Shown here one piece after another: positions 28,105 to 43,989 of a stretch of DNA of 64,000 bases. This stretch comes from Phytohabitans rumicis (GTDB taxonomy: Bacteria; Actinomycetota; Actinomycetes; Mycobacteriales; Micromonosporaceae): assembly GCF_011764445.1 (NCBI RefSeq), contig NZ_BLPG01000001.1:8175316-8239315 (forward strand). The letters are read 5' to 3'. How positions within the stretch are numbered: the stretch's first letter is position 1; each line of letters begins with the position of its first letter. Under the pieces are notes generated by a model, which was not told the DNA's origin, did not search any database, and saw only the letters and a program-made list of their open reading frames with translations. A program made the translations under genes and the position numbers.

Positions 28105-28851
28105 ATGTCCGACAACGATCGTCCGGTCGCGCTCGTCACGGGAGGCTCGCGCGGCATCGGCCGCGCCGTGGTGAGCCGCCTCGCACGGGACGGCTTCGAC
28201 GTCAGCTTCTGCTACCACTCCAACGCGGAGGCGGCGGAGCTGCTCGCCAAGGAGTGCGCGGAGACCGGCGCGCGGGTGCTCGCCCGCCGGGCCGACGTGT
28301 CCGACCGGGCACAGGCCCACGCGTTCGTGGAGGACACCGAGCGGGAGCTCGGCCCGGTGCACGTGGTGGTCACGAGCGCCGGCATCGTCCGGGACCGCCC
28401 GCTGGCGTTGATGGCCGACGAGGACTGGGACGCGGTGCTGCGGGTCAACCTGGACGGCACCTACCACGTCTGCCGGGCGGTGGTCCGCCGGCTCATGCGC
28501 CGCAAGGCCGGCTCGGTCGTCACGATGTCGTCGGTCGCCGGCGTTTCCGGCAATGCCAACCAGACCAACTACGCGGCGTCCAAGGCCGGCATCATCGGTT
28601 TCACCCAGTCGCTGGCCCGCGAGGTCGGCCGGTACGGCATCCGCGCGAACGTGGTCGCACCCGGCCTGATCGAGACCGACATGACCACGGAGCTGCCCGA
28701 GAAGGTGGCCGCCGACCTGCTCGGCCGCACCCTGCTGGGCCGCTTCGGCACGGCCGACGAGGTCGCGGACATGGTCTCCTTCCTGGCCTCCCCGCGATCG
28801 TCCTATGTGACCGGACAGGTGTTCCGCGTGGACGGCGGCATCACCACCTGA
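28105..28851 (+). CDS. 3-oxoacyl-ACP reductase-like short-chain dehydrogenase (FabG family)
   Basis: The 248-residue SDR has the NADPH motif [12 protein letters not shown], the NAG equivalent TSAG, catalytic Ser in MSSVAG, Tyr and Lys in NYAASKAG, and the FabG-type ending [13 protein letters not shown]. It probably reduces a beta-ketoacyl group on the ACP encoded two genes on, after the KAS III condensation. It is the first gene of the starter-unit operon and is directly preceded by the SARP-type repeat. Confidence 0.9.
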
Positions 28852-28870: not shown

Positions 28871-29827
28871 ATGCACCAGACCTACGGCTCGGCGATCACC
28901 GGCATCGCCGCGTACCGGCCCACCAACCTCGTGTCCAATGAGGAGCTGGCGAAGCGGACCACCGTGACGCCGGAGTGGATCGAGTCACGCACCGGCATCA
29001 AGACCCGCTACCACGCCACCGACGAGGAGGACATGGTCACCATGTCCGCCGAGGCCGGCCAGAAGGCGATCGCGATGGCGAACGTCGACCCGGCCGAGAT
29101 CGACCTCACCATCGTGGCGACCGCGACCCGGCGGCAGCGCATGCCCGGCATCGGCCCGCAGGTGGCCACCCGGATCGGCCTGCCCGCCTCCGGCGCGTAC
29201 GACCTGAACGCGGTCTGCGCCGGCTTCACGTACTCGGTGTCGATGGCCTCGAACGCGGTGCGCGTCGGCGACGCGCGCAACGTGCTGGTGGTCGGCGTCG
29301 AGCGCACCAGCGACTGGATCAACCCGGAGGACCCGGACACGTTCGTCATCTTCGGCGACGGCGCGGGCGCCGTGGTGGTCTCGCGCTCCACCGAGGACGC
29401 CATCGGGCCGACGGTGTGGGGCAGCGACGGCGGGCGGCACAAGGTGCTCGGGCTGACCGAGCTGCCGGACGGGCGGGAGTTCGTCACCATGGACGGCCCG
29501 CTGGTCTACAAGTGGTCCACCGCCACCATGCCGGGCGTCGCCGAGCGCGCCTGCGCCGCGGCCGGCGTAACACTGTCCGATGTGGACTGGTTCGTGCCGC
29601 ACCAGGCCAACCGCCGCATCATCGACACGCTCACCCGCACGCTGCGCTTCCCGAAGGACCGGGTCATGTGCGACGTCGTCGACACCGGCAACACGTCGGC
29701 CGCGTCGGTGCCGCTGGCCCTGTCCCGGCTGTACGAGACCGGCCGGACCAGCCCCGGCGACCGCGTGCTGCTGCTCGGCTTCGGTGCCGGTCTCACGTAC
29801 GCCGGCCAGCTGATCCGCATGCCCTGA
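28871..29827 (+). CDS. 3-oxoacyl-ACP synthase III (FabH-like)
   Basis: The 318-residue enzyme keeps the complete KAS III triad: Cys116 (NAVCAGF), His244 (VPHQANRR) and Asn274 (DTGNTSAAS). The C-terminus LLGFGAGLTYAGQLI is typical. It would condense an acyl-CoA with malonyl-ACP to start a short acyl chain. With FabG and an ACP but no KAS II or dehydratase, a single-round beta-hydroxyacyl starter is the simplest prediction. GGGGGAG precedes the ATG. Confidence 0.92.
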   Translation: MHQTYGSAITGIAAYRPTNLVSNEELAKRTTVTPEWIESRTGIKTRYHATDEEDMVTMSAEAGQKAIAMANVDPAEIDLTIVATATRRQRMPGIGPQVATRIGLPASGAYDLNAVCAGFTYSVSMASNAVRVGDARNVLVVGVERTSDWINPEDPDTFVIFGDGAGAVVVSRSTEDAIGPTVWGSDGGRHKVLGLTELPDGREFVTMDGPLVYKWSTATMPGVAERACAAAGVTLSDVDWFVPHQANRRIIDTLTRTLRFPKDRVMCDVVDTGNTSAASVPLALSRLYETGRTSPGDRVLLLGFGAGLTYAGQLIRMP

Positions 29828-29856: not shown

Positions 29857-30102
29857 ATGAGCCAGGAAGAGATCACCGCTGAGATCGTGCGCCTCATCCG
29901 GCAGGAGATGCCGGACGTGGAAGGCGAGATCACGCCCGACTCGCAGTTCGAGGAGCTGGGCATGGACTCGCTGACCCGGGTCGACCTGCTCGCCGCGGTG
30001 GAGCGGACGTTCGGTCTGGAGGTGCCCGACGACGCGGTGGCCACGCTGCTGCGGGTCAGCGACCTGACCGAGTTCCTCGCCACCAGCAAGGCAAGCGTCT
30101 AA
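29857..30102 (+). CDS. Acyl carrier protein
   Basis: The 81-residue protein has the phosphopantetheine site ELGMDSLTRVDLLAAVE with Ser38, and IxxEMPDVEGEITPDSQF before it. It is a free-standing ACP that should carry the starter made by KAS III and FabG and offer it to the condensation protein encoded four bases downstream. AGAGGAACC precedes the ATG. Confidence 0.93.
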   Translation: MSQEEITAEIVRLIRQEMPDVEGEITPDSQFEELGMDSLTRVDLLAAVERTFGLEVPDDAVATLLRVSDLTEFLATSKASV

Positions 30103-30106: not shown

Positions 30107-31468
30107 ATGACCGAGACCAGGCCGCTGTCGGTGGGGCAGGAGTCGCTGTGGCTCCTGCACAAGCTCGCCCCGGACAGCGCGGCGTACAACCTCGCGGGTG
30201 GCGCCCGGATGACGCCCGCACCGGACGTGCCCACGCTGGCGCGCGCGGTGCGGGCCCTGTCCGCGCGGCACGACGGGCTGCGGTCCACCTTTGCCGAGGT
30301 GGACGGCCACCCGCGCCGGGTCGTACGCGGGCCGGAACGCAACCACCTGGACGTGCGCGACGTGCCGGACGCCGACGACGAGCGGTTGTGGGAGCTGGTC
30401 CTGGAGGTGACCCGCGAGCCGTTCGCGCTCAGCGGGCCGGCGCCGGCCACCCCGCTGCGGGCGGTGCTGCTGCGCCGCCGCGAGGACGCCGTCTTCCTGA
30501 TGGTCACCCACCACATCGTCACCGACGCCACGTCGCAGTGGGTGCTGTGGCGCGACCTGATCGCCGCGTACCGGGGGTTCGCGGAAGGGACCGAGCCGGA
30601 CTGGCCGCCGCTGCGGGCCGGCTACGACGACCACGTGGCGCGCGAGGCACGCCTGCTGGACTCGCCCAGCGGCCATCGGATGGCCGAGCACTGGCGCACG
30701 GTCTGCGCCGGCGCCACGGCCGCCGAGCTGCCCACCGACCGGCCCCGGCCGCCGTTCCCGTCGTTCTCCGGGGCGAGCGTCGCCCGCCGCCTTCCCGACG
30801 AGCTCGCCGAGGGGGTACGCGCGACCGCCGCCCGGATCGGTGTCTCGCCGTTCGCCTTCCTGCTCGGCGCGTTCCAGGGGCTGCTCTACCGGCACACCGG
30901 GCAGAGCGACTTCACGGTCGGCTGCCCCGCCTCGACCCGCCGGGCCGCGGCCCGGGACGTCGTCGGCTACTACGTCAACCCGATCCTGCTGCGGTCCGGC
31001 TTCGCGCGGCACACCACGTTCGCCGACGCGGCCGTGGCCGCCAACCACCAGGTACGGCAAGGGATGGCGAGCGCCGCGTACCCGTACCCCTTGGTGGCGC
31101 GCGAGGCGGCGGCGCCGCTGTTTCGGATCGCGGCCACGATGGTGACCGCGGACCGGTTCGGGCCGGAGCTGGAGCGGGCCGTCGCCGGCGAGGTCATGCA
31201 CGTCAGCGGCGTGAAGATGGCCTACCAACAGATCCCGCACATGGAAGGCCAGTGTGACCTCACGGTGGAGTTCACCCAGGACGCGTCGGCGCTCGTGGTG
31301 GTCTTCCGGTACGACACCGACCTGTTCGAGCCGTCCACGATGGATCGGCTCCTGGACCACTTCACCCGGCTGGTCGAGGCCGGCGTGGCCGACCCGCTCA
31401 CGAAGGTCACGCGGGCACCGCTGGTGAGCGCGGTCGAACGCCAGCGCCTGCTGGCCATGGGCAGCTGA
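30107..31468 (+). CDS. Stand-alone NRPS condensation domain
   Basis: The 453-residue protein is one condensation domain: PLSVGQESLWLLHKL (C1), ALSARHDGLRSTF (C2), THHIVTDATS (C3, HHXXXDA), YYVNPILLRS (C5) and CDLTVEFTQ near the end. Gly of the usual HHXXXDG is Ala, which is tolerated in some active domains. Since NRPS1 begins with an adenylation domain and has no starter C domain, this protein probably N-acylates its first aminoacyl group with the ACP-bound acyl chain. It could also serve other modules in trans. Confidence 0.88.
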   Translation: MTETRPLSVGQESLWLLHKLAPDSAAYNLAGGARMTPAPDVPTLARAVRALSARHDGLRSTFAEVDGHPRRVVRGPERNHLDVRDVPDADDERLWELVLEVTREPFALSGPAPATPLRAVLLRRREDAVFLMVTHHIVTDATSQWVLWRDLIAAYRGFAEGTEPDWPPLRAGYDDHVAREARLLDSPSGHRMAEHWRTVCAGATAAELPTDRPRPPFPSFSGASVARRLPDELAEGVRATAARIGVSPFAFLLGAFQGLLYRHTGQSDFTVGCPASTRRAAARDVVGYYVNPILLRSGFARHTTFADAAVAANHQVRQGMASAAYPYPLVAREAAAPLFRIAATMVTADRFGPELERAVAGEVMHVSGVKMAYQQIPHMEGQCDLTVEFTQDASALVVVFRYDTDLFEPSTMDRLLDHFTRLVEAGVADPLTKVTRAPLVSAVERQRLLAMGS

Positions 31469-31481: not shown

Positions 31482-32482
31482 GTGGCGCCTGCGCCGCTCA
31501 AGGGCATTCTCGAGACGATCGGCAACACCCACCTCGTGGAGCTGGACGGGCTCTTTCCCGCGCTCAACGCCCGGGTCTTCGCCAAGCTCGAACGCTTCAA
31601 CCCGGGCGGCAGCGTCAAGGACCGGTCGGCGCTGTCGATGCTGCTCGGCAAGATCCGTTCGGGCGAGCTGCGCCCCGGACGGTCCACAGTGGTCGAGTCC
31701 AGCTCCGGCAACCTCGCCATCGGCATCGCGCAGATCTGCCGGTACTTCGGGCTGCGGTTCGTCTGTGTGGTGGACGCCAAGACCACACAGCAGAACCTGG
31801 CGATCCTGCGCGCGTACCAGGCCACCGTGGAGGTGGTCACCGACCCGGACCCGAAGACCGGCGAGTACCTGCCGGTGCGGCTGCAGCGGGTGCGCGAGCT
31901 GGTGGACCGGCTGCCCGACGCCTACTGGCCCAACCAGTACGCCAACCTGCTCAACCCGCGGGCGCACGAGCGCACGATGCACGAGATCGCGCAGGCGCTG
32001 GACGGCCGGGTCGACTACCTCTTCTGCTCGGCGAGCACCGGCGGCACGCTGCGCGGCGCGGCCCAGTACGTCCGCGCGCACGGGATGAGCACCCGGATCG
32101 TCGGCGTGGACGCGGTGGGCAGCGTGCTCTTCGGTGGTCCGCCCGGGCGGCGGCTGATCCCCGGGCACGGCGCGGCGGTCCGGCCCGAGCTGCACGACCC
32201 GTCCGCCGCCGACGAGTTCGTCCACATCAGCGACCTGGAGTGCGTGGTGGCCTGCCGGACGCTGACGATCCGGGAGGCGATCCTGGCCGGCGGCTCGTCC
32301 GGCGCGACCGTCGCGGCGCTGGAGAAGCTCAGCGGGCGGATCCCGCGGGGGAGCAACTGCGTGCTCGTCTTCCCGACGGCGGCGACCGCTACCTCGACAC
32401 CATCTACTCCGACGAGTGGGTGACGTCCCACTTCGGCGAGGTATCCCACCTGTGGAAGGAAGAGGTGACGGTCCAGTGCTGA
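31482..32482 (+). CDS. sbnA: SbnA-like N-(2-amino-2-carboxyethyl)-L-glutamate synthase, frameshifted at the end
   Basis: This is a PLP-fold type II (cysteine synthase) enzyme of ~333 residues: PLP Lys46 in NPGGSVKDR, VVESSSGNLAIGIAQ, FCSASTGGTLRGAA, GGSSGATVAAL. SbnA joins O-phospho-L-serine and glutamate; SbnB then releases L-2,3-diaminopropionate. The last part (VLVFPDGGDRYLDTIYSDEWV) is in another frame. One extra C in the CCC at 32372-32374 restores it and makes the stop overlap the sbnB GTG, as expected for a coupled pair. RBS GGGGAG precedes the GTG start. Confidence 0.87.
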
Positions 32483-33528
32483 TCATTGGCCACGAGACGG
32501 TACGGGGCCTGCTCGCCGGGCGCGAGCGGGAGCTGATCGGCCTCGTCGCCGACGCGTACCGCCGGCACGACGAGGGCCTGTCGGCGCTGCCGCACTCGGT
32601 CTTCCTGCGCTTTCCCGACCAGCCGCGCAACCGCATCATCGGGCTGCCCGGCTTCCTCGGCGGCGCGGACCCGGTGGCCGGGCTCAAGTGGATCGCGTCC
32701 TACCCCGGCAACATCGACTCCGGCCGGGAGCGGGCCAGCGCGTCGATCATCCTCAACTCGCTGGAGACCGGGTACCCGCAGGCGTTCATCGAGGGCTCGC
32801 TGATCTCCGCGCAGCGCACCGCCGCCAGCGCCGCCCTCGGCGCCCGGCTGCTGTCCGGCGACCGCACGCCGACCGGGGTGGCGCTCATCGGCTGCGGTGT
32901 CATCAACCGCGAGATCCTGCGCTTCCTGATGGCCGACAACCCCAAACTCACGGCGGTAACCGTCTACGACTCGGACCCCGCCCGCGCCGAGGCGTTCGCC
33001 GCGATCTTGCAAGGAAGGGCACCTTCCTATGCAAAAAGCGATAACAAGGTGCCCTTCCTTGCAGACGTGGCGGTGGCTGGCGGGGTGGGGGAGGCCGTAG
33101 GGGCGCATGAGTTGGTGTCGATCGCGACCACCGCGGCCGCCCCGCACATGGACCTGGCGGCCAGCCGCCCCGGCGCGGTCGTGCTGCACGTCTCGCTGCG
33201 CGACCTCACCACCGCGACGATCCTGGCCAGCCACAACGTCGTCGACGACCCGGACCACGTGCTGCGCGAGCGCACCTCCCCGCACCTGGCGCAGGAGGAG
33301 ACCGGGCGGCGGGACTTCATCGACGCGAGCATCGGCGCGCTCCTGCGCGGCACCGCCACGCTGCGCCCGGAGCCCGGCCGGCCGCTGGTGTACTCGCCGT
33401 TCGGCCTCGGCGTGCTTGACCTCGCGCTCGCCCGCTACGTCCACGACGAGGCCGCCCGCCGCGGGCTCGGCACCACAGTGGACGACTTCCTGCCGCCATC
33501 CGCGAACCCCGTCGAGGAGTCCCGATGA
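32476..33528 (+). CDS. sbnB: SbnB-like 2,3-diaminopropionate-forming dehydrogenase (ornithine cyclodeaminase family) with repeat insertion
   Basis: The 350-residue protein matches SbnB: VFLRFPDQPRNRIIGLPGFLGG, GLKWIASYPGNIDSGRERASA, NAD site GVALIGCGVINREILRF, and RDFIDASIGALLRG. SbnB oxidatively cleaves the SbnA product to L-2,3-diaminopropionate and 2-oxoglutarate. Residues ~178-196 (LQGRAPSYAKSDNKVPFLA) are encoded by a 56-base palindromic repeat inserted in frame after the second Rossmann strand. The stop overlaps the NRPS1 ATG by ATGA. Whether the enzyme tolerates the insertion is unknown; it lies in a loop-like region. Confidence 0.88.
   Translation: MLIIGHETVRGLLAGRERELIGLVADAYRRHDEGLSALPHSVFLRFPDQPRNRIIGLPGFLGGADPVAGLKWIASYPGNIDSGRERASASIILNSLETGYPQAFIEGSLISAQRTAASAALGARLLSGDRTPTGVALIGCGVINREILRFLMADNPKLTAVTVYDSDPARAEAFAAILQGRAPSYAKSDNKVPFLADVAVAGGVGEAVGAHELVSIATTAAAPHMDLAASRPGAVVLHVSLRDLTTATILASHNVVDDPDHVLRERTSPHLAQEETGRRDFIDASIGALLRGTATLRPEPGRPLVYSPFGLGVLDLALARYVHDEAARRGLGTTVDDFLPPSANPVEESR
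33008..33063. repeat. Palindromic repeat, copy 2, inside sbnB
   Basis: The two arms (33008-33025 and 33046-33063) are perfect 18-base complements (TGCAAGGAAGGGCACCTT) around a 20-base loop, CCTATGCAAAAAGCGATAAC. Copy 1 is at 2751-2802. The element keeps the reading frame open and has no transposase, as for a REP-like or MITE-like sequence. Confidence 0.88.
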
Positions 33529-36500
33529 CCGTCCCCCTCCACGAACTCGTCGCGCGCCAGGCCGCGCGCACTCCCGACGCGGTCGCCGTCGTCGACGGCC
33601 GGCAGGAGCTCACGTACGCCGAGCTCGACCGCCGCGCCAACCAGATGGCGCGGCTGTTACGGGCCCGCGGAGTCGGCCCGAGCGCCGGTAACTCAGAGTC
33701 GCTGGTCGCCGTGTGCCTGCCGCGTGGCGTCGAGCTGGCCGCGGTGCTGCTCGGCGTGTGGCGGGCCGGCGCGGCGTACGTGCCGCTGGACCCCGGCCAC
33801 CCGCGCGACCGGATCGCCTGGGTGCTGGCCGACACCGGCGCGCGCGTGGTGGTCACCGACGAGTCGCTGTCCCACCTCGTGTCCGGCCTGGGCGTCGACA
33901 CGATCGGCGTCGAGGACAAGGAGCGGGACGGCCTGCCGGACACCGCGCCGGGCGTCGAGGTTGTGCCGTCGAGCACCGCGTACGTCATCTACACGTCCGG
34001 CTCCACCGGGCGCCCCAAGGGCGTCGTCATCGACCACCGCGGCATCGCCAACCGGGTCATGTGGACGGTCGGCGAGCACAACCTGTCCACATCGGACCGG
34101 GTGCTGCAGAAGACGTCGCTGAGCTTCGACGCGGCCGGCTGGGAGGTCTTCGCGCCCCTGGTCAGCGGCGGCGTCGTGGTGATGGCGCCGGCCGGCGCCG
34201 AGCGCGAGCCGGCCACCCTGGTCCGCGCGGTCGCCGACGGCCGGATCACGGTGCTGCAGGGCGTCCCGTCGGTGCTGCGGCTGCTGGCCGACGAGGCGGG
34301 CTGGACCGAGTGCACCTCGCTGCGGCTGATCTTCTCGGCGGGCGAGGCGCTCAGCGCCGAGCTGGCCCGCCGGCTCGCCGAGCCCACCGGCGCCCAGGTG
34401 TGGAACACGTACGGCCCGACCGAGTGCTCGATCGACGTGACCGCGCAGGCGTACGACCCGGCGCAGGCGAGCGGGCCGGTGCCGATCGGGCGGCCGATCC
34501 AGAACATGCGCGTCTTCGTCCTCGACGACGAGGGCGACCCCGCGCCGATCGGGGTGGTCGGCGAGCTGTACGCGGCCGGCGCCGGCGTGGGCCGCGGCTA
34601 CCTGGGCCGCCCGGACAGCACGGCCGAGCGGTTCGTGCCCGACCCGTTCGGCGCCCCGGGCACCCGCCTCTACCGCACCGGTGACCTGGCCCGCTGGCGG
34701 CCGGACGGCGCGCTGGAGTTCCTCGGCCGGGGCGACCAGCAGGTCAAGGTCAACGGCGTACGGATCGAGCCGGCCGAGGTGGAGGCCGCGTTGCAGGCCC
34801 ACCCGGACGTGCGCGACGCGGTCGTGGTGGCCCGGGAGGGCGGCGCCGGCAAGCAGCTCGTCGCGTACCTCGTGGCCCGCCGCCAGGTGCCCGGTGACGA
34901 GCTGCGCACGTACCTGCGCGAGCGGCTGCCCGAGCCGCTCATCCCGGCCGTGTTCGTGCCGCTCGACGCGTTCCCGCTGACCACCAGCGGCAAGGTGGAC
35001 CGGGGCGCGCTGCCCGACCCGGCCGCCGTCGCCGCCCAGCGCGGCGCCGGGTACGTCGCCCCGCGCACCCCGCAGGAGCGGCTGGTCGCCCAGGTGTGGG
35101 AGCAACTGCTCGGCGTGGAACGGGTCGGCGCGCACGACGACTTCTTCGCGCTCGGTGGGTCCTCGCTGGTGCTGACCCGGCTGGCGAGCGCGCTGCGCAA
35201 GGCGTCCGGCGGCGACGTGCAGCTGCGCGGGCTCTTCGGCGCCGCGACGGTGGAGTCCCAGGCCAAGCTCATCGCCGGCGGCCGGGACGAGGTGCCGCCG
35301 GTGACCGCGGTGCCGCGCGGCGAGCCGCTGCCGCTGTCGTTCGGCCAGCACCGGCTGTGGTTCCTGAACCAGATGCACCCGGGCAGCCCGGAGTGGGTGG
35401 CGCCGCTGTTCCTACGGCTGCCGGCGGGCACCACCGCGGCCGCCGTCCAGGGCGCGCTCGACGCGCTGGAGGCCCGGCACGAGGCGCTGCGCACCCGGTA
35501 CGTCACGGTCGCCGACGAGCCCCGGCAACTCGTCGCCGCGCCGCAGCCGGTGGAGCTGCGCCTCGTCGACGCCGGCGCGGGGGATCTGGAGCTGCTCTTC
35601 GCGGAGCAGTTCGCGCGCGGCTTCGACCTCATCGACGGTCCACTGTGGCGCGCCCTGCTGGTGATCCCGGGGCCGGCGTCGTCTGGACTGAGGAGCGAAG
35701 CGACGAGGGAAGACGACGCCTCCCAGGCCCCGGGATCCGCGCGAGCGGAGCGAGCGCCGGCTAGCTCAGCACCGATCCTGCTGGTGACCGTGCACCACAT
35801 CGCCACCGACGGCTGGTCCACCGTGGTCCTGGAGCGGGAGCTGCGCGAGCTGTGCGCCGCGGCCGCCGATGGACGCGAGCCGGCCCTCGCCCCGCTGCCG
35901 GTGCAGTACGCCGACTACGCCGCCTGGCAGCGCGCCCGACTCACCGACGAGGTGATCCGGCGGGAGCTGGACCACTGGCGCCCGGCGCTGGACGGGCTGC
36001 CCGCCCTGGAGCTGCCGACCGACCGGCCCCGGCCGCCGGAGCGCGACCCGCGCGGCGCCGGCGTACGGCTGAACCTGTCGCCCCGGCTGACCGACGCGCT
36101 CACCGCTCTCGGCCGGCGGCACGGCGCCACGCCGTTCGTCACCCTGCTGACCGCGTTCGCCGCGCTGCTGTCCCGGTACAGCGGCCAGGACGACCTCGGC
36201 GTCGGTACGCCGGTGGCCGGCCGCACCCGGCCCGAGGTGGAGGGCATGGTCGGCTTCTTCCTCAACTCGCTCGTGCTGCGCTGCGACCTCACCGGCGACC
36301 CCACGTTCACGGATGCGCTGGAGCGGGTGCGGGCCGCGAGCCGGATCGGCTTCGCGCACCAGGAGCTGCCGTTCGAGCGGCTCGTCGACGAGCTGCAGCC
36401 GGTCCGCGACCTGTCCCGCACACCGCTGTACCAGGTGGCGTTCGACCTGCAGGACGAGGGCTTCACGACGGTGGCGGCGGACGGCGCGCTGATGGACGCG

Positions 36501-38504
36501 TTCCAGCGCTCCTGGCGGGTGGCCAAGACCGACCTGACGCTGTTCATGTGGCGGCAGGAGGACGGCTCGCTGACCGGCGCGCTGGAGTACGCCACCGCCC
36601 TCTTCGACGAGGCCACCGTGCAGCGGATGGCCGACCACCTGGTCCGGCTGCTGGAGGCGGTCGTCGCCGACCCGGCCGTCCGGCTGTCCACGGTGGACTT
36701 CTCGTCGATCCACGAGCGGCGGGTCATGGCGCAGTGGAACGAGACCGCGGTCCCGCTGCCGGTCACGTCGGTGCCGGAGCTGGTGCGGGCGCAGGCCCAG
36801 GCCACCCCGGACGCGGTGGCCGTGGAGATCGGCGAGCTGCGGCTGACGTACCGGGAGTTGGAGGAGCGCGCCACCCGGCTCGCGCACCACCTGCGCGAGC
36901 GTGGCGTCGGCCCGGAGTCCACCGTGGGCGTGCTGCTCGACCGGGGCGTGGACCTGGTGGTGGCGCTGCTGGCGGTGTGGAAGGCGGGCGGCGCGTACGT
37001 GCCGCTGGACCCGGCGTTCCCGGCCGACCGGATCGGCCAGATGATGGCCGACTGCGGCGCCGGCCTGGTGCTCACCCGCTCCCGGTACGCCGACCGGTTC
37101 GCGGCGGTGGAGTGCGTGCTCGTGGACACCGAGCGCTTCGAGATCGCCGACCGGCCGCCGACCCCGCTGACCCGGCGCCCCGACCCGGACGGCGCCGCGT
37201 ACGTCATCTTCACGTCCGGCTCGACGGGCCGGCCGAAGGGCGTCGTGGTGACCCACCGCGGGCTGGTCAACCACGTCCGCTGGGCCGCCGACACCCTCGC
37301 CTCCCGGGGTACGGGTGGGGCGCCGCTGTTCTCGTCGGTGGCGTTCGACCTGGTGGTGCCGAACCTGTGGGCGCCGCTGGTGTCGGGGCAGCGGCTGTGG
37401 CTGCTGCCGCCGGACGCCGAACTGTCCACTCTGGCCGCCGAGCTGGCGAAGGCCGCCCCGTTCAGCTTCATCAAGCTGACCCCCGGCCACCTGGAGATCC
37501 TCGACCCGTCCGCCGCGCACGCGCCGGTCATCGTGGTCGCCGGCGAGGCGCTGCCCGGCCCGATCGCGGAGAAGTGGCGGCAGGTCCTGGGCGACGGCAA
37601 CCTCGTCAACGAGTACGGGCCGACCGAGGCGTCCGTGGGCACCTGCATTTTCCCCGTCTCCGGCCCACAGAAGCCGGGCGTGGTACCCATCGGCCGGCCG
37701 CTGCCCAACATGACGATGCGGGTCCTGGACGCCACCCTGCGGCCCGTTCCGGTGGGCGTGGTCGGCGAGCTGTACGTCGGCGGCACCGGCGTGGCCCGCG
37801 GGTACGTGAACCGGCCCGAGCTGACCGCGGAGAAGTTCCTGCCCGACCCGTGGTCGCCCGGCGCCCGGATGTACCGGACGGGCGACCTGGTGCGCTGGTC
37901 CGCCGAGGGGAACGTGGAGTTCCTGGGCCGGGTCGACGACCAGGTGAAGATCCGCGGGTACCGGGTGGAGCTGGGCGAGATCCGGGCCGTGTTGCTGGAC
38001 CACCCGGACGTCAAGGACGCCGCGGTCATCGCCCACGAGCAGCGCCTCGTGGCGTACGTGGTCGGCTCCACGGACGTACAGGAGCACTGTGGACAGACGC
38101 TGCCGGAGTACATGGTCCCGGCCACCGTCATCGCGGTGGACCGGATCCCGCTCAACGACAACGGCAAGCTCGACCGGCGCGCCCTGCCCGACCCGGACCA
38201 GGCCGCCGCCGGCGAGGACGCGGTCGCCCCGCGCACCGTCGCCGAGGAGCGGATCGCGGACATCTGGGAGGAGTTGCTGGGCGTCCGCGCCGGCGTACAC
38301 CAGAGCTTCTTCGCGCTCGGCGGGCACTCGATCCTCGCCGTGCGGCTGATCTCCCGGCTACAGGCCGAGTTCGAGGTCACGCTGCCGGTCCGCACGGTGT
38401 TCGAGCGGCCCACGATCGCGCAGCTCGGCGCGGAGGTCGAGGGGCGGATCCGGGCCGAGATCGCCGCGCTGTCCGACGCTGAACTGCTGGCCGACAAGGT
38501 GTGA
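33525..38504 (+). CDS. NRPS1: A-PCP-C-A-PCP
   Basis: The 1659-residue synthetase has A1 (~5-500, [11 protein letters not shown]), PCP1 (FFALGGSSL, Ser ~545), C (~600-1055, HHIATDG near 757), A2 (~1075-1555) and PCP2 (FFALGGHSI, ~1598). Pocket residues read by eye are DAWQFATIDK for A1, nearest the Gln code DAWQFGLIDK, and DLPKVAEVGK for A2, of the Asn/Asp type (DLTKxGEVGK). A1 has no C domain before it, so the stand-alone C protein should acylate it. The C domain carries an inserted ~30-residue loop from a palindrome. A TTA codon (residue 45) could make it bldA-dependent. Given the genes around it, diaminopropionate or its carbamoyl derivative may be a substrate. Confidence 0.92.
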   Translation: MTVPLHELVARQAARTPDAVAVVDGRQELTYAELDRRANQMARLLRARGVGPSAGNSESLVAVCLPRGVELAAVLLGVWRAGAAYVPLDPGHPRDRIAWVLADTGARVVVTDESLSHLVSGLGVDTIGVEDKERDGLPDTAPGVEVVPSSTAYVIYTSGSTGRPKGVVIDHRGIANRVMWTVGEHNLSTSDRVLQKTSLSFDAAGWEVFAPLVSGGVVVMAPAGAEREPATLVRAVADGRITVLQGVPSVLRLLADEAGWTECTSLRLIFSAGEALSAELARRLAEPTGAQVWNTYGPTECSIDVTAQAYDPAQASGPVPIGRPIQNMRVFVLDDEGDPAPIGVVGELYAAGAGVGRGYLGRPDSTAERFVPDPFGAPGTRLYRTGDLARWRPDGALEFLGRGDQQVKVNGVRIEPAEVEAALQAHPDVRDAVVVAREGGAGKQLVAYLVARRQVPGDELRTYLRERLPEPLIPAVFVPLDAFPLTTSGKVDRGALPDPAAVAAQRGAGYVAPRTPQERLVAQVWEQLLGVERVGAHDDFFALGGSSLVLTRLASALRKASGGDVQLRGLFGAATVESQAKLIAGGRDEVPPVTAVPRGEPLPLSFGQHRLWFLNQMHPGSPEWVAPLFLRLPAGTTAAAVQGALDALEARHEALRTRYVTVADEPRQLVAAPQPVELRLVDAGAGDLELLFAEQFARGFDLIDGPLWRALLVIPGPASSGLRSEATREDDASQAPGSARAERAPASSAPILLVTVHHIATDGWSTVVLERELRELCAAAADGREPALAPLPVQYADYAAWQRARLTDEVIRRELDHWRPALDGLPALELPTDRPRPPERDPRGAGVRLNLSPRLTDALTALGRRHGATPFVTLLTAFAALLSRYSGQDDLGVGTPVAGRTRPEVEGMVGFFLNSLVLRCDLTGDPTFTDALERVRAASRIGFAHQELPFERLVDELQPVRDLSRTPLYQVAFDLQDEGFTTVAADGALMDAFQRSWRVAKTDLTLFMWRQEDGSLTGALEYATALFDEATVQRMADHLVRLLEAVVADPAVRLSTVDFSSIHERRVMAQWNETAVPLPVTSVPELVRAQAQATPDAVAVEIGELRLTYRELEERATRLAHHLRERGVGPESTVGVLLDRGVDLVVALLAVWKAGGAYVPLDPAFPADRIGQMMADCGAGLVLTRSRYADRFAAVECVLVDTERFEIADRPPTPLTRRPDPDGAAYVIFTSGSTGRPKGVVVTHRGLVNHVRWAADTLASRGTGGAPLFSSVAFDLVVPNLWAPLVSGQRLWLLPPDAELSTLAAELAKAAPFSFIKLTPGHLEILDPSAAHAPVIVVAGEALPGPIAEKWRQVLGDGNLVNEYGPTEASVGTCIFPVSGPQKPGVVPIGRPLPNMTMRVLDATLRPVPVGVVGELYVGGTGVARGYVNRPELTAEKFLPDPWSPGARMYRTGDLVRWSAEGNVEFLGRVDDQVKIRGYRVELGEIRAVLLDHPDVKDAAVIAHEQRLVAYVVGSTDVQEHCGQTLPEYMVPATVIAVDRIPLNDNGKLDRRALPDPDQAAAGEDAVAPRTVAEERIADIWEELLGVRAGVHQSFFALGGHSILAVRLISRLQAEFEVTLPVRTVFERPTIAQLGAEVEGRIRAEIAALSDAELLADKV
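35664..35736. repeat. Inverted repeat inserted in the NRPS1 condensation domain
   Basis: ATCCCGGGGCC (35664-35674) pairs with GGCCCCGGGAT (35726-35736), and GGCGTCGTCT (35675-35684) with AGACGACGCC (35711-35720), with a five-base bulge. The centre holds GGAGCGAAGCGACGAGG. It adds about 30 residues between LLVIPG and ILLVTVHHIATDG, a place where related C domains have only a short turn. No transposase; frame kept. Confidence 0.8.
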
Positions 38505-38515
38505 AGGAGACAGTC

Positions 38516-39433
38516 ATGCGCCATCTCATCTCCATCAGCGACCTGACCGACGAGGACCTGCACGGGATCGTGGCGCGGGCCGCCCGGTTCGGCACCAGCG
38601 GGGTGGACGGCCGTCCCCTGGAGGGCGCGATCGCCGGCATCTACTTCCGCCGCACGTCGACCCGCACGCGCACCGCGTTCTCCGCCGGCGCGCTGCGGCT
38701 CGGCGCGCAGATCATCACGTTCGGCCCGGACGACCTGCAACTCAACACCGGCGAGACCACACAGGACACCGGGCGGGTGCTGTCCGGAATGCTGGACCTG
38801 CTGGTCGCCCGGACCGCCGACGCGACGGCGGAGCTGCGCACCTGGGCGGACGCCGGCCCGATGTCGGTGGTCAATGCGATGAGCGCCGAGGAGCACCCCA
38901 CCCAGGCGCTCGCCGACCTGACCACGCTGCGGCGGCACTTCGGCCGCATCGAGGGCCTGCGCCTGCTGTACGCCGGCGAGGGCAACAACACCGCCGCCGC
39001 GCTCGCCCTCGCGCTGACCCGCTTCCCCGGCACCACGCTGGAGCTACGCACCCCGCCCGGGTACGGCCTGGCCGCGGACGTACGCGCCGAGGCGGCCGCC
39101 CAGGCGCAGCGGTCCGGGGCCACCCTCGTCGAGCGGCACGACATGGCCGACGTGCCGGAGGACTTCGACGTCGTCTACACCACCCGCTGGCAGACCACCG
39201 GCACCAGCAAGCCCACCCCGGACTGGCGGGAGGTCTTCGCGCCCTTCCAGGTGACGGCGGCGCTGTGGTCGGGCAGCCCGAAGGCGGTCTTCATGCACGA
39301 CCTGCCCGCCCACCGGGGCGAGGAGGTCACCGCCGAGGTGCTCGACGGGCCGGCCAGCATCGCGTTCGCCCAGGCGGAGAACAAGCTCTACAGCGCGATG
39401 GCGGCGCTGGAATGGTGCTGGGCGGCCAAATGA
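38516..39433 (+). CDS. Ornithine/aspartate carbamoyltransferase family enzyme with HDLP motif
   Basis: The 305-residue enzyme keeps the carbamoyl phosphate sites TSTRTRTAF and HPTQALADL and the closing AQAENKLYSAMAAL. The ornithine-binding HCLP of OTC reads MHDLP, so its acceptor is probably not ornithine. Placed after SbnA, SbnB and NRPS1, it most likely carbamoylates L-2,3-diaminopropionate to beta-ureidoalanine, the role proposed for VioL/CmnL in viomycin and capreomycin biosynthesis. ATG 38516 is chosen because GAAGGAG lies just before it; the stop overlaps the exporter ATG. Confidence 0.85.
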   Translation: MRHLISISDLTDEDLHGIVARAARFGTSGVDGRPLEGAIAGIYFRRTSTRTRTAFSAGALRLGAQIITFGPDDLQLNTGETTQDTGRVLSGMLDLLVARTADATAELRTWADAGPMSVVNAMSAEEHPTQALADLTTLRRHFGRIEGLRLLYAGEGNNTAAALALALTRFPGTTLELRTPPGYGLAADVRAEAAAQAQRSGATLVERHDMADVPEDFDVVYTTRWQTTGTSKPTPDWREVFAPFQVTAALWSGSPKAVFMHDLPAHRGEEVTAEVLDGPASIAFAQAENKLYSAMAALEWCWAAK

Positions 39434-40668
39434 CGCTGGTCGAGGAGACGTCCACACAGGACCACCCGCCGCTGCGCCGGAACCGCGCCTTCCAGTACCT
39501 GTGGGCCGGCTCCGCCCTGTCCGTCCTGGCCGAGCGGTTCTCCGCCATGGCGTTCACGCTGGTGGTGATCTGGTCGACCGGCTCGAAGAGCGCCGCCGGC
39601 CTGGTGGCGTTCGCCGCGCTGCTGCCGATGCTGCTCGTGCAGCTGCCGGCCGGCGTGCTGGTGGACCGGTGGGACCGGCGCCGGGTGATGGTGGTCTGCG
39701 TCGCCGGCCGCCTGCTCGGTGTCGGCAGCGTCGCCGCGGCCGTGGCCACCGACCGGGTGTGGATCCCGCACCTGGCGGCCGTCGCGTTCGCCCAGGGCGC
39801 CATGACGGTCTTTTACCAGCTCGCCGAGCGGGCCACCGTGCGGTCCGTGGTGCCCGCCGCGCAACTGCCCGCCGCGATGGCGCAGAACGAGGCGCGCGGC
39901 CGCGGCGCGAACTTCGTCGGCCACCCGGCCGGCGGGTTGCTCTTCGGGCTGACCGCGTACGCGCCGTTCCTGACCAGCACGGTGTTCTACCTCGTCTCGC
40001 TGGTGGCGATGCTGCGCCTGCGTACCCCCGTGCGGGCACCCGCGAAGCGCAAGGGCTCCGGCGTGGCCGCCGGCCTGCGGTGGGTGTGGGGCCGGCGCTA
40101 CTTCCGCACGGCGCTGCTGCTGATCGCGGGCAGCAACCTGCTCTTCCAGGGGATGATCCTGACGCTCCAGGTGGTGATCAAGGAGCAGGGCCGGTCGTCC
40201 GCCGTGGTCGGTCTGATCATGGCGGCGGGCAGCGTCGGCGGCCTGGCCGGCGCGGTCGTCGGCGGCTGGTGGAGCCGGCGCATGGCGATGCGCCACATCA
40301 TGGTCGTCGCGTACGTCGCCTGGGCGCTCGTCATGCCCGGCCTGATCGTCGCGGCGCACCCGGTGGCGTTCGGCGCGCTGTTCTTCGCCACCTCGCTGAT
40401 CGGCGCCGCCACCACCGTCGCCGGCATGGTCTACCAGCTGCGCATCACCCCGGACGGGATGCAGGGCCGGGTCGGCAGCGTCGTGCTGCTGCTCACCTCC
40501 GGCGCCAGCTCGATCGGCGCGCTGGGCACCGGCTTCCTGCTGGAGGCGGTCAGCACCACCCGCGCGTTCGCCGCGATGTCCGTGACGATGGGCGTGCTGG
40601 CGCTGCTCACCATCGCCACCTTCGCCAGGCGTGGGGCCCGGGAGGAAGACGGTATGGGAAATGTATAG
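39430..40668 (+). CDS. MFS exporter (EntS-like)
   Basis: The 412-residue protein has 12 likely membrane helices and an MFS_3/EntS pattern: FQYLWAGSALSVLAERFSAMAF, the loop DRWDRRRVMVV after helix 2-3, and QLRITPDGMQGRVGSV in the second half. Relatives export siderophores and peptides. Its ATGA overlap with the carbamoyltransferase gene shows coupling. It probably exports the finished product. The SARP-type repeat for the next transcription unit overlaps its last codons. Confidence 0.88.
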   Translation: MTLVEETSTQDHPPLRRNRAFQYLWAGSALSVLAERFSAMAFTLVVIWSTGSKSAAGLVAFAALLPMLLVQLPAGVLVDRWDRRRVMVVCVAGRLLGVGSVAAAVATDRVWIPHLAAVAFAQGAMTVFYQLAERATVRSVVPAAQLPAAMAQNEARGRGANFVGHPAGGLLFGLTAYAPFLTSTVFYLVSLVAMLRLRTPVRAPAKRKGSGVAAGLRWVWGRRYFRTALLLIAGSNLLFQGMILTLQVVIKEQGRSSAVVGLIMAAGSVGGLAGAVVGGWWSRRMAMRHIMVVAYVAWALVMPGLIVAAHPVAFGALFFATSLIGAATTVAGMVYQLRITPDGMQGRVGSVVLLLTSGASSIGALGTGFLLEAVSTTRAFAAMSVTMGVLALLTIATFARRGAREEDGMGNV

Positions 40669-40722: not shown

Positions 40723-41658
40723 ATGAGTGACAGTTGGAAGCCTCTGGAGATCGACCCGGCCAGCGTCGGCGCCGAGGCCAGCACCGCGGGTCTCGTCGCC
40801 TACCTGCGCGGCGCGGCCGGGCTGGACGAACTGCTGGTCAAGGAGAAGGCGCTGGTGTTCCGCGGGTTCGGCGTCGGGCCCGGCGAGCTCGACGGCGTGC
40901 TGGACCTGCTGCTGCCCAACCGCCTGGCGTACGTGCACGGCAACTCGCCGCGCACCAAGGTCGGCCAGAACGTCTACACCTCGACCGAGTACCCGCCGGA
41001 GTTCACCATCTCCATGCACAACGAGCTGTCGTACGCCGCGGCGTGGCCGTCCCGCCTGGCCTTCTACTGTGAGAAGGCGGCCACCACCGGCGGCGCCACC
41101 CCGGTCGTGGACGGCGTGCTGTGGCTGGATTCGCTCGACCCCGAGGTGCGCGCGGCGTACTCCAACGGGGTGCGCTACACGCAGAACCTGCACGACGGGC
41201 TCGGCCTCGGCAAGAGCTGGCAGGACACGTTCGAGACGGACGACCGCGACCAGGTCGAGGCGTTCCTGGCCGGCTCCGGCGCGACCTGGCAGTGGAAGTC
41301 GGACGGCACCCTGCGGGTCAGCCAGATCCGCCCCTCGACCATCGCGCACCCGGTGACCGGCGCCGAGGTCTGGTTCAACCAGTCCGACCAGTGGCACGTG
41401 GCCGCGCTCGGCGACGAGACCGCCAAGGCGTTGGCCCAGATCATGCCGGAGGAGGACCTGCCGCAGTCGGTCAGTTTCGCCGACGGCTCGCCGATCCCGG
41501 CCGAGTACGCCATCCAGGTGCGCGACCGCGGCCTGGAGGGCGCCGTCGACGTGGACTGGCGCGAGGGCGACGTGCTGCTGATCGACAACATCCTCGTGGG
41601 CCACGGGCGGCGGCCGTTCAGCGGGCAGCGCCGCGTCCTGGTCGCGATGTCCGACTGA
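40723..41658 (+). CDS. Fe(II)/2-oxoglutarate oxygenase, TauD/SyrP-like (1)
   Basis: The 311-residue protein has the iron facial triad: His99 and Glu101 in MHNELSY and a distal His in LVGHGRRPFSGQRR, where the Arg binds 2-oxoglutarate. ALVFRGFGV near the start and QNVYTSTEYPPEF match SyrP-like NRPS tailoring hydroxylases, which act on Asp or related residues on a carrier domain. It may beta-hydroxylate an Asn-like or ureidoalanine residue loaded by the DLPK-type modules. GGGGAGAG precedes the ATG. Confidence 0.87.
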   Translation: MSDSWKPLEIDPASVGAEASTAGLVAYLRGAAGLDELLVKEKALVFRGFGVGPGELDGVLDLLLPNRLAYVHGNSPRTKVGQNVYTSTEYPPEFTISMHNELSYAAAWPSRLAFYCEKAATTGGATPVVDGVLWLDSLDPEVRAAYSNGVRYTQNLHDGLGLGKSWQDTFETDDRDQVEAFLAGSGATWQWKSDGTLRVSQIRPSTIAHPVTGAEVWFNQSDQWHVAALGDETAKALAQIMPEEDLPQSVSFADGSPIPAEYAIQVRDRGLEGAVDVDWREGDVLLIDNILVGHGRRPFSGQRRVLVAMSD

Positions 41659-41669: not shown

Positions 41670-42599
41670 ATGACTCGCGTGCTGCCCCACCTCGTGGAGG
41701 CGGACGGCTCGGGCATCGGCGTGCTCGAACGCATCGGCGGCGAGCGGCAGAAGCTGCGCGGCCTGCTGGCCGAGCACGGCGCGCTGCTGCTGCGCGGCTT
41801 CGACATCGGCGGCGTGGACGGCTTCGACCGCGTGGTGCGGGCGCTGTCCGGGGCGCCGCTGACGTACGCCGAGCGCTCCTCGCCGCGCAGCACCATCAAG
41901 GGGCAGGTGTACACCTCGACGGACTACCCGCCGGACGAGGAGATCTTCCTGCACAACGAGAACTCGTACCAGGCGGTCTGGCCGCTGACCCTGTACTTCC
42001 ACTGCCTGCAGGCGCCGCTGACCCGCGGTGCCACGCCGTTGGCCGACATCCGCCGGGTGTACGAATCGATCGACCCGTCGGTACGCGAGGAGTTCGCCCG
42101 GCGCAAGTGGATGGTGGTGCGCAACTTCCACCCGGACTTCGGCAGCTCGTGGCGGCACGCGTTCAACACCGAGGACCGCGGCGTCGTCGAGGCGTACGCG
42201 ATCGAGCGCGGGATCACCCTGGAGTGGCTCGACGGCGACGGGCTGCGTACCCGGGCCGTCCGCGACGCGGTGCACCGGCACCCGGTCACCGGCGAGAAGG
42301 TGTGGTTCAACCACGCGACGTTCTTCCACCTCAGCACGCAGGCCAAGGACGTACGGGACGGGCTGCTGGAGATCTTCGAGCCGGCCGACCTGCCCAGCAA
42401 CACGTACTACGGCGACGGCGGCACCATCCCGGACGACGTGATGGACCACCTGCGCTCCTGCTACCGGCAGGCGTCCACCCGCTTCGACTGGCAGTACGAC
42501 GACGTACTCGTGGTGGACAACATGCTCGCGGCGCACGGGCGCGAGCCGTACACGGGACCTCGCAAGATCGCGGTCGCGATGGCCGAGCCGTCGGGCTGA
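41670..42599 (+). CDS. Fe(II)/2-oxoglutarate oxygenase, TauD/SyrP-like (2)
   Basis: The 309-residue paralogue of the preceding enzyme has LLLRGFDIGG, YTSTDYPPDEEIFLHNENSY (HXE pair) and MLAAHGREPYTGPRK with the distal His and Arg. The two differ enough to act on different residues or positions. RBS GGGGAG, 11 bases after the first oxygenase stop. It ends the operon; a strong terminator follows 18 bases on. Confidence 0.87.
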   Translation: MTRVLPHLVEADGSGIGVLERIGGERQKLRGLLAEHGALLLRGFDIGGVDGFDRVVRALSGAPLTYAERSSPRSTIKGQVYTSTDYPPDEEIFLHNENSYQAVWPLTLYFHCLQAPLTRGATPLADIRRVYESIDPSVREEFARRKWMVVRNFHPDFGSSWRHAFNTEDRGVVEAYAIERGITLEWLDGDGLRTRAVRDAVHRHPVTGEKVWFNHATFFHLSTQAKDVRDGLLEIFEPADLPSNTYYGDGGTIPDDVMDHLRSCYRQASTRFDWQYDDVLVVDNMLAAHGREPYTGPRKIAVAMAEPSG

Positions 42600-42616
42600 C
42601 CGCTCGTTGAAGATCG

Positions 42617-42644
42617 AATGGGCTCCCCGCGGGGAGCCCATTTT
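42617..42644 (+). terminator. Rho-independent terminator after the oxygenase pair
   Basis: ATGGGCTCCCC and GGGGAGCCCAT form a perfect 11-base stem with a two-base CG centre, followed by TTTT. It is the clearest intrinsic terminator in the window. Confidence 0.85.
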
Positions 42645-42657
42645 CGCGAAAACTGGA

Positions 42658-42701
42658 GGTGGTGCTAGGTGCAGGGCGAACACGGGTACCTGTGTCCTGG
42701 T
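42658..42701 (+). promoter_or_regulatory. Conserved upstream element, copy 2
   Basis: GGTGGTGCTAGGTGCAG, CGGGTAC and TGTGTCCTGGT align with the copy at 27458-27500. It lies 31 bases before the sensor kinase start. Confidence 0.6.
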
Positions 42702-42732
42702 TTACCCCGGCCGCCTTCTCTACGGTCATGGG

Positions 42733-43989
42733 GTGAGTTCGTACCGGGCCGTCGCCGCGGAGCTGCTAAGGCATGCTCCGTGGTCGGCGCGCGCCTGGCA
42801 GGCCACCGCCCACGTGCTGGTCGGCGGCGTGGTCGGGGTGGTGACCGGGGGCGTGGTGTTCGCGCTGGCGCTGGCCACCGCCGTCCTCGCGGTCACCGTC
42901 GTCTTCGCGCTCGGCACCGTTTTCGCCCTGTACGCCTGCGTGTACGCGTTCGCCGCGCTGCAGCGCTCCCGCTTCGAGGTGTTTCTCGGCGAGCGGATCC
43001 CGGCGCCGGCCACCCACCCGTATGACGGCTGGTCGCAGCGGCTCGTCGGCGAGGCGCGGTCGGAGGCCCTGTGGCGGCACCTGGCGTACCACATCTTCGC
43101 GCTGGTGGTGGGCGGCGCCGGCGCCATCGTCGTGGCGCTGACCTGGGCCGGCGGCCTGCTGCTGGCGACCGCGCCGCTGCACGGCTGGCTGCTGGCCGAC
43201 GACCCGGCGGGCCCGCTGGCGCTGGCCGGCGCCACGGTCGCCGGCCTGGTGCTGGTCTTCGCCGCGCCGTGGCTGGCCCGCGGCTTCGCCGCGGTCGACC
43301 TGCTGGCCGGGCGGGCCCTGCTCGGCCCGAGCAGCCGCGCCGAGCTGGCGCTGCGGGTGGCCTCGCTGGCCCGCAGCCGGGCCGACCTGGTCGCGGCCGC
43401 GGACGCCGAGCGCCGGCGCATCGAGCGCGACCTGCACGACGGCATGCAGCAGCGCCTGGTCTCCCTCGCGATGAACCTCGGCCTCGCCCGCGCCTCCTTC
43501 CCGGACGCGCCGGACCCGCTGCGCGAGGCGATCGCCCGCTCGCACGACGACGCCAAGCTGGCGCTCAGCGAGCTGCGCGACGTCGTCCGCGGCCTGTACC
43601 CCGCGGTCCTGGACAACCTCGGGCTGGACGCGGCCCTGTCCGGGGTCGTCGCCCGCTCGCCCGTCCCCGCCCGGCTCCGGGTCGACCTGCCCGAGCGCCC
43701 GCCGGTGGCGATCGAGGCGGTGGCCTACTTCGTCGTCTCCGAGGCGCTCGCCAACGTCGCCAAGCACTCCTTCGCGTCCCGGGTGGAGGTCACCGTCCAG
43801 CTCACCGAGGGCGGCGACAAGCTGCGGGTCGTGGTCGCCGACGACGGCCGCGGCGGCGCCCGCCCCGAGCGCGGCACCGGCCTGCGGGGGCTGGCTCAGC
43901 GCGTGGCGTCGGTCGATGGCACCCTGGACATCGACAGCCCGGACGGGGGGCCGACGACGATCGTGGTGGAGCTGCCATGCGGGTCATGA
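42733..43989 (+). CDS. NarL-type sensor histidine kinase (membrane)
   Basis: The 418-residue kinase has an N-terminal sensor region with two pairs of membrane helices (~25-80 and ~120-190), phosphoacceptor DAERRRIERDLHDGMQQRLVSLA, ATP-binding FVVSEALANVAKHS, DDGRGGA and GTGLRGLAQRV. The GTG at 42733 follows TACGGT by six bases, so a leaderless start is likely; an upstream ATG would read through the terminator. It heads an operon with a regulator, a putative anchored protein and an ABC exporter, a layout often linked to antibiotic sensing and self-protection. Confidence 0.9.
   Translation: MSSYRAVAAELLRHAPWSARAWQATAHVLVGGVVGVVTGGVVFALALATAVLAVTVVFALGTVFALYACVYAFAALQRSRFEVFLGERIPAPATHPYDGWSQRLVGEARSEALWRHLAYHIFALVVGGAGAIVVALTWAGGLLLATAPLHGWLLADDPAGPLALAGATVAGLVLVFAAPWLARGFAAVDLLAGRALLGPSSRAELALRVASLARSRADLVAAADAERRRIERDLHDGMQQRLVSLAMNLGLARASFPDAPDPLREAIARSHDDAKLALSELRDVVRGLYPAVLDNLGLDAALSGVVARSPVPARLRVDLPERPPVAIEAVAYFVVSEALANVAKHSFASRVEVTVQLTEGGDKLRVVVADDGRGGARPERGTGLRGLAQRVASVDGTLDIDSPDGGPTTIVVELPCGS

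Follow-up and report, generated by a model that had tools for sequence, protein, structure and literature searches.

A predicted diaminopropionate carbamoyltransferase and a proposed beta-ureidoalanine adenylation code in a Phytohabitans rumicis peptide cluster

The combination of L-2,3-diaminopropionate (Dap) with carbamoyl chemistry is already known from viomycin, capreomycin and zwittermicin, according to PMC4581275 and PMC6022934. The same reviews describe for zwittermicin A, from Bacillus cereus, a Dap carbamoyltransferase that supplies beta-ureidoalanine (Uda), and PMC4581275 describes for padanamide a 2,4-diaminobutyrate (Dab) carbamoyltransferase, DBTCase, that carries an HDLP motif and an RWQ loop. 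Here we analyse a nonribosomal peptide synthetase (NRPS) cluster of Phytohabitans rumicis in which genes for Dap synthesis lie with a gene of the ornithine carbamoyltransferase (OTC) family. The cluster is found in a stretch of 64,000 nucleotides, hereafter the window, which corresponds to positions 8175316-8239315 of contig C1 in a source genome of 10.7 Mb. The OTC-family enzyme is predicted, with good support from motifs, family cut-offs and gene linkage, to be a Dap carbamoyltransferase (DPTCase) and not ArgF, and the first adenylation (A) domain of the adjoining NRPS probably selects free Uda. The link between this enzyme family and one clade of A domains appears to be new here, as does the proposed Uda code, and our literature searches found no Uda adenylation code in print.

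Carbamoyltransferase and diaminopropionate genes

The open reading frames (ORFs) at the centre of the cluster follow one another with overlaps of 4-8 bases between neighbours. In the domain strings below, T and C stand for thiolation and condensation domains.

31482..32423, + strand: SbnA-type pyridoxal phosphate (PLP) enzyme, predicted first step to L-Dap (TIGR03945; 5d84 at 2.3e-63)
32416..33528, + strand: SbnB-type dehydrogenase, predicted second step to L-Dap (TIGR03944; 4m54 at 4.1e-30)
33525..38504, + strand: NRPS 1, A-T-C-A-T (first A domain at 33537-35021, code DAWQFATID; second at 36765-38195, code DLPKVAEVG)
38501..39433, + strand: predicted L-2,3-diaminopropionate carbamoyltransferase, DPTCase (both OTCase Pfam domains; motifs; below the OTC cut-off)
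39430..40668, + strand: exporter of the major facilitator superfamily, MFS (PF07690/PF05977)

NRPS 1 and the OTC-family gene share four bases, and the MFS exporter, which starts at 39430, overlaps the OTC-family gene likewise. The first-pass annotation had taken the SbnA, SbnB, NRPS and OTC-family genes at 31482-39433 as one set, which these end-to-end overlaps confirm. The cluster as a whole exceeds that interval, extending from about 26.6 to 65.6 kb with its final 1.6 kb past the window end.

The carbamoyltransferase keeps the carbamoyl-phosphate motifs STRTR (SxRTR) and HPTQ (HPxQ), and TTRWQTTG and HDLP replace the DxxxSMG and HCLP of OTCases. It reaches 244.8 bits on the NCBIfam ornithine carbamoyltransferase equivalog, under the cut-off of 280.85, and its two paralogues and two viomycin-type homologues also fall below this value. 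The ArgF-like gene of the same genome (L004), which has the DxxxSMG and HCLP motifs, scores 358.4 bits and is over the cut-off. The nearest relatives of the window enzyme are found in Phytohabitans maris (90%) and P. flavus (86%), and among 75 relatives fetched from genome contigs RWxTTG is present in 70 and HDLP in 72. Homologues from a viomycin-type locus of Streptomyces californicus (L078, 56%) and from S. cinnamoneus (L074, 57%) carry SRWQTTG and HDLP. L078 was assigned as viomycin-type by its codes and by comparison of its gene order with that of viomycin. Relatives of the enzyme are annotated as ornithine carbamoyltransferase.

The two reviews differ on what the loop motif means. PMC4581275 (2015) gives (T/S)RWQTTG to the Dap enzyme and TRWQSMG, the loop of the padanamide DBTCase, to the Dab enzyme, whereas PMC6022934 (2018) cites that paper and gives S/TRWQTTG to the Dab enzyme, with the motifs reversed. 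Because the viomycin-type homologues read SRWQTTG, the 2015 assignment fits; the one in PMC6022934 looks swapped and could be corrected. The loop motif alone was dropped as a Dap/Dab discriminator because these sources contradict each other. The genes linked to the window enzyme, with its TTRWQTTG loop, are those for Dap and not for Dab.

Both partner genes pass their family cut-offs. For the SbnA-type enzyme, in which SVKDR and SSSGN were read for the PLP lysine motif, TIGR03945 gives 388.4 bits against a cut-off of 349.95; for the SbnB-type enzyme, TIGR03944 gives 387.5 bits against 326.9. The viomycin and capreomycin systems have a similar SbnA/SbnB-like pair, but the window enzymes score higher to the staphyloferrin B enzymes than to those of capreomycin: the top solved relative of the first is SbnA (5d84, 217.5 bits, vs 162.4 for CmnB), and that of the second is 4m54 (108.2 bits, vs 68.1 for CmnK), which was deposited as a putative ornithine cyclodeaminase and which we take to be S. 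aureus SbnB.

Linkage of carbamoyltransferase and SbnB was followed in 50 loci chosen from the 75, in 48 genomes, and in an order sample (150 genomes from the order to which the window belongs), 10 of which, including the window's own, have the carbamoyltransferase. The whole-genome searches scored the best 15, 13 or 7 candidates per genome, and absence means that none was found among those. SbnB over the family cut-off is present in 41 of the 48 carbamoyltransferase genomes and in 18 of the 150 order-sample genomes. Within the order sample, SbnB matches at 1e-60 or better occur in 7/10 genomes with the carbamoyltransferase and 12/140 without. The 48 genomes hold 60 carbamoyltransferase relatives, of which 35 have an SbnB-type gene within 50 kb on the same contig (28 over the cut-off), and the three copies of the source genome lie 0.1, 5 and 19 kb from one. 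The first-pass annotation had joined a Dap pathway to a carbamoyltransferase at this locus, and the motifs, cut-offs and linkage support a Dap carbamoyltransferase.

Carbamoyltransferase relatives were also observed elsewhere. At 1e-40 the gene was found in 29 plasmid records, 28 of Streptomyces (including pSCL4 of S. clavuligerus) and one of Monoglobus, with no Bacillus among them for comparison with zwittermicin; in the annotated records among the 25 listed of these 29 it is named ornithine carbamoyltransferase. Beyond actinomycetes, the metagenome-assembled Acidobacteriota genome OFTM223 has relatives of 52-53% (L069, L071), whose loops TRWQTMG and TRWNTMG are intermediate between both published motifs.

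The first adenylation domain

Pocket codes were obtained by automatic alignment to four window domains and comprise nine residues, the tenth (Lys) being assumed; domains with gapped codes were excluded from counts. This re-derivation returned the first-pass codes of NRPS 1, DAWQFATID and DLPKVAEVG. The first belongs to a Gln-like family, DA[WL]Q[FCSTW]AT[IV]D, abbreviated here DA.Q.AT.D.

This domain tracks the carbamoyltransferase. In a class sample of 296 genomes, 12 with the carbamoyltransferase, 13 matches to the first A domain exceed 120 bits; every one comes from 10 of these 12 genomes, and the other 284 have none, their best match reaching 107.8 bits (Fisher test for 10/12 vs 0/284, 5e-17, relatedness of the genomes being ignored). 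Copy numbers of enzyme and A domain agree, with three of each in the window genome, two of each in G304 and one of each in the other eight. One match was read in each of the ten genomes, and all ten have DA.Q.AT.D. Codes were also read for the 20 next-best matches, none of which comes from these ten genomes; they are the Gln-type DAWQFGLIN, DAWQFGVIN and DAWQFGLVD or of Ser type. In the order sample, the code is present in 5/5 genomes, the window's own excluded, that combine SbnB with a carbamoyltransferase scoring over 400 bits, and in 0/12 genomes that have SbnB without carbamoyltransferase (p 0.00016, again ignoring relatedness).

We also laid out 26 carbamoyltransferase-centred regions, many partly covered, among them the window and the viomycin-type locus. 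Of the 26, 19 contain a DA[WL]Q[FCT]AT[IV]D domain, and a twentieth was added by further reading of the third cluster of the source genome; G007 and G018, which show no such code, were read in part. The assembly lines that contain the domain differ widely in their order. The class-sample genomes G312, G410, G424 and G350 are, by identical coordinates, those of L014, L062, L051 and L070, and G318 has a contig of the same length as L063, so the 26-region and class-sample counts are not independent.

In a tree of 158 A domains, all 21 DA.Q.AT.D domains (20 distinct, the L204 and G042 entries being the same domain) form one clade with support 0.984. Its sister (0.912) is the domain of the G031 region, which has DALQCGIVD in place of the code. 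Gln and Ser types stand next to the clade with unsupported branching (0.046); the DAWQFGLIN domains group with the Ser type there, and a direct Gln-type origin of the first A domain is unsupported by the tree. These DAWQFGLIN domains, the best first-A-domain matches in genomes without carbamoyltransferase, lie in ORFs of about 1300-1400 residues that we take, by length, to be indigoidine-synthetase-like. The Gln-type domains have Gly301 and mostly Leu322 (Val in some), whereas the clade has Ala301 and Thr322. A sister cluster in G090, an SbnB genome without DPTCase, encodes an NRPS 1 that is 52% identical together with TauD1 and TauD2 oxygenases; over the 40 kb read it has no carbamoyltransferase, SbnA or SbnB, and the code of its first A domain is DAWQSGTIE, which has Gly301.

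Because the code co-occurs with the carbamoyltransferase, is absent from genomes with SbnB only and forms one clade, we read it as probably selecting free Uda. Thr322 might then hydrogen-bond the urea NH. If the code is right, sequence alone would suffice to find Uda peptides and to read them in part, and "ornithine carbamoyltransferase" genes on Streptomyces plasmids, and probably on many actinomycete chromosomes, would have to be renamed. The two-position difference from Gln-type domains would offer a handle on how A domains discriminate urea from amide.

The second adenylation domain, the proposed pathway and its alternatives

Two oxygenase genes downstream of the MFS exporter bear on the second A domain.

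40723..41658, + strand: TauD1, Fe/2-oxoglutarate oxygenase, proposed Asn beta-hydroxylase (PF02668; HNE and distal His)
41670..42599, + strand: TauD2, Fe/2-oxoglutarate oxygenase (PF02668 at 3.8e-46 for the longer ORF; HNE)

The first-pass annotation had called the oxygenases SyrP-like; both proteins belong to the TauD Pfam family and have an HxE motif, and the best solved relative of TauD1 is At3g21360. Seven sampled genomes that have no carbamoyltransferase match (G210, G266, G310, G326, G446, G454, G381) also contain DLPKVAEVG, the code of the second A domain. Six DLPKVAEVG regions were fetched, five from those genomes and one from a further contig of G424, which has the carbamoyltransferase, and a TauD1 homologue (69-75%) adjoins the code in 5/6 of them, or 4/5 of the genomes without carbamoyltransferase, G381 being without. 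Among the 75 loci, 18 have TauD1 of at least 60% in the stretch; the A code is complete in 16 of them, and each of these 16 includes an Asn-like one, such as DLTKVGEVA or DMTKVGEVA. Since DLPKVAEVG is found without carbamoyltransferase and beside TauD1, this domain more likely takes Asn or 3-hydroxy-Asn, and the code was rejected as one for Uda. The first-pass annotation had held that both pockets would suit Uda; this stood for the first A domain and fell for the second, and the clade link thus places ureidoalanine at module 1 and takes it from module 2. In G381, which has no carbamoyltransferase match, locus L126 (G381:C536:18001-38000) appears to contain at about 3.8-4.6 kb an SbnB-like stretch in or beside a partial A-domain match of an NRPS.

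Enzyme families, motifs, domain order, codes and co-occurrence were read from the sequence, and from them we infer every substrate, carbamoylation ahead of loading, the working order of both NRPSs and the product. SbnA and SbnB would produce Dap, and the OTC-family enzyme would transfer the carbamoyl group of carbamoyl phosphate to its beta-amino group to give free Uda. The first A domain, a Gln-type pocket altered by G301A and L322T, would pick Uda, which the starter genes described below (KAS III, ketoreductase, acyl carrier protein and stand-alone C domain) would acylate, probably with a 3-hydroxyacyl group. The following modules would bring in an Asn-type residue, with TauD1 as its hydroxylase, then one Thr-like residue, two further Asn-type residues and a Gly-like one, and the beta-lactamase-fold domain fused to the last module would release the peptide. 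Taken as a whole, we consider this pathway likely.

A number of observations weigh against it. Whether the loop motif tells a Dap from a Dab enzyme is left open in PMC4581275. Among the 60 carbamoyltransferase relatives, 24 have no SbnB on their contig and one has it at 75 kb, and seven of the 48 genomes (G035, G037, G042, G043, G044, G045, G048) have no SbnB over the cut-off, G042 and G045 having the DA.Q.AT.D code despite this. In the class sample, one of the two misses, G286, has DASQFAHID beside the enzyme, and the fetched region of the other, G396, shows no A domain. In the order sample, 4/9 other carbamoyltransferase genomes are without the code: G140 has a 69% carbamoyltransferase with SbnA and a divergent SbnB adjoining and lacks an NRPS in the surrounding 10 kb or so; the carbamoyltransferases of G113, G166 and G066 are more distant. 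Code and enzyme lie on separate contigs in G187, where the 20 kb read shows different codes in the NRPS next to the enzyme. These order-sample misses and G187 count against the pairing of enzyme and code and lowered our confidence in it. Enzyme and code are also on different contigs in the drafts G230 and G440. Among the 26 regions, the code is missing from G033 and G041 (in the stretches read) and from the viomycin-type locus, where the module assigned by gene order to VioF has a Gln-like A301 domain with DAQDLAIVD against DAWQFATID in the window, and it is absent from the stretch read of S. clavuligerus pSCL4 (L239). Against a strict pairing of the Asn-like code with TauD1, DPTCase clusters of the DITQ type (G008, G011, G014, G019, G026) have DLPKIAEVG with no TauD1 of at least 65% in the genome. 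Finally, the co-occurrence fits selection of Uda and one inherited cassette alike.

The same evidence bears on other ways of using the enzymes. The first A domain might load Dap, with the carbamoyltransferase acting on the carrier-bound or finished peptide; Dap genes do lie mostly near the DA.Q.AT.D code, and we did not meet in print the stage at which viomycin is carbamoylated. We regard this as improbable, because the 12 genomes with SbnB and no DPTCase all lack the code and because the pocket resembles a Gln code and would not be of a cationic type. The fuller version of the first-pass reading, in which the Gln-like and Asn-like domains both load Uda and the peptide has several Uda residues, would suit the frequency of DLPKVAEVG-type codes near DPTCase genes and the DITQ-type clusters mentioned above. 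It is hard to reconcile with the seven genomes that have DLPKVAEVG and no DPTCase match, with the adjoining TauD1 in most of those fetched and with the Asn-like code at all TauD1 loci with a complete code, and we give it very little credence. Equally slight, in our judgement, is the chance that the carbamoyltransferase acts on Dab, like the padanamide enzyme, and yields 2-amino-4-ureidobutyrate, or on ornithine, and yields citrulline. The motif assignment of PMC6022934 would favour a Dab enzyme, but its cited source, PMC4581275, assigns the motif to the Dap enzyme; the SRWQTTG of the viomycin-type homologues, the linked Dap genes and the score under the OTC cut-off argue against this alternative as well.

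Starter, release domain and neighbouring genes

The remaining features of the cluster lie on both sides of the genes listed above.

26659..27438, + strand: type II thioesterase (PF00975 at 1.2e-48; GHSMG motif)
27524..28048, + strand: DUF1203 protein, start uncertain (PF06718 at 4.8e-18; 47% relative in a Kineosporia babensis cluster)
28105..28851, + strand: FabG-like ketoreductase (KR), starter unit (PF13561 at 5.7e-65; YAASK motif)
28871..29827, + strand: ketoacyl-ACP synthase III (KAS III), starter unit (PF08541/PF08545; Cys-His-Asn in the CAG, HQAN and GNTS motifs)
29857..30102, + strand: acyl carrier protein (ACP; frame reading; GMDSL attachment motif)
30107..31468, + strand: stand-alone C domain (PF00668 at 1.2e-63; HHIVTDA)
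42607..43989, + strand: sensor histidine kinase (PF13796, PF07730, PF02518)
ORF ending at 44618: response regulator (PF00072, PF00196)
45391..48699, + strand: ABC ATPase and FtsX-type permease, exporter (PF00005, PF02687)
52010..64000, continuing to ~65593, + strand: NRPS 2, C-A[DVWNVAMVH]-T-C-A[DLPKVAEVG]-T-C-A[DLPKVAEVG]-T-C / A[DIAQVTLIW]-T-beta-lactamase-fold domain

The first-pass annotation had named an acyl starter and oxygenases at this locus, and KR, KAS III, ACP, the stand-alone C domain and two TauD genes were identified. The stand-alone C domain would link the acyl-ACP with residue 1. The acyl starter, the TauD pair and a different NRPS distinguish the cluster from those of viomycin and capreomycin. 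No Pfam acyl-CoA-dehydrogenase match, as for a VioJ/CmnJ-type desaturase, was found in the 36 of the ORFs that were scanned; VioJ is taken here to have the acyl-CoA-dehydrogenase fold.

In NRPS 2, DLPKVAEVG occurs as the second and third code. The first code, DVWNVAMVH, is Thr-like, and several relatives read DFWNVGMVH at the same slot; the last, DIAQVTLIW, is presumably Gly-like, by comparison with DILQLGLIW. After the last T domain, a beta-lactamase-fold domain with an SISK (SxxK) motif (L089:10167-12908, that is, window 62852 to ~65593) occupies the usual place of a thioesterase and is fused behind A-T in one ORF. Relatives of this domain end an NRPS in 9/26 regions (the window, G004, G006, G012, G018, G023, G029, G036, G038). 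Its best solved relatives are the ClbP peptidase and DD-peptidases, which are closer than SurE (6ksu, 3.4e-6) and Ulm16 (8fek, 4.3e-5). The latter two, thioesterases of the penicillin-binding-protein (PBP) type, share the SxxK serine-hydrolase fold at the release step; PMC11735501, in which 6ksu is SurE, describes PBP-type thioesterases as stand-alone, whereas the domain here is fused to the last module. It differs from a PBP-type thioesterase both in not being a stand-alone protein acting in trans and at its C-terminus: the Beta-lactamase Pfam match extends to residue 901 in an ORF of 913 residues, which leaves no room for a lipocalin-like domain. A cis-fused release domain of this fold would broaden the picture of how peptides are released. 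Beta-lactamase-like proteins have been proposed for siderophore release.

A bolder proposal, which we put forward as tentative and would not call probable, is that DA[WL]Q[FCSTW]AT[IV]D is a dedicated code for free Uda, in which G301A and L322T let the Thr hydroxyl or its neighbours take the extra urea NH, and that the ureidoalanine peptides of actinomycetes form a large, uncharted family of which this code is the mark. The product here might then be a hexapeptide of the type acyl-Uda-(OH)Asn-Thr-(OH)Asn-(OH)Asn-Gly, released or cyclised by the NRPS-fused beta-lactamase-fold domain, with TauD2 possibly oxidising Uda to a dehydro form in place of VioJ. Our literature searches indicated no product for the cluster.

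NRPS 2 contains frame breaks near 54.7 and 59.6 kb that P. flavus, which has the same cluster, lacks, and the P. flavus NRPS genes have their own near 16.5 and 34.6 kb (in reversed L086-L088). These unshared breaks are probably sequencing errors. Between the ABC exporter and NRPS 2, positions 48769-51450 on the - strand encode a TIR/SEFIR domain with TPR repeats. The source genome also has two further ureidoalanine-type clusters, at C1:7622001-7662000 (L090, L082) and C1:1271501-1311500 (L199, L083), both of which combine a carbamoyltransferase and SbnA/SbnB-like genes with a single DAWQxATID domain.

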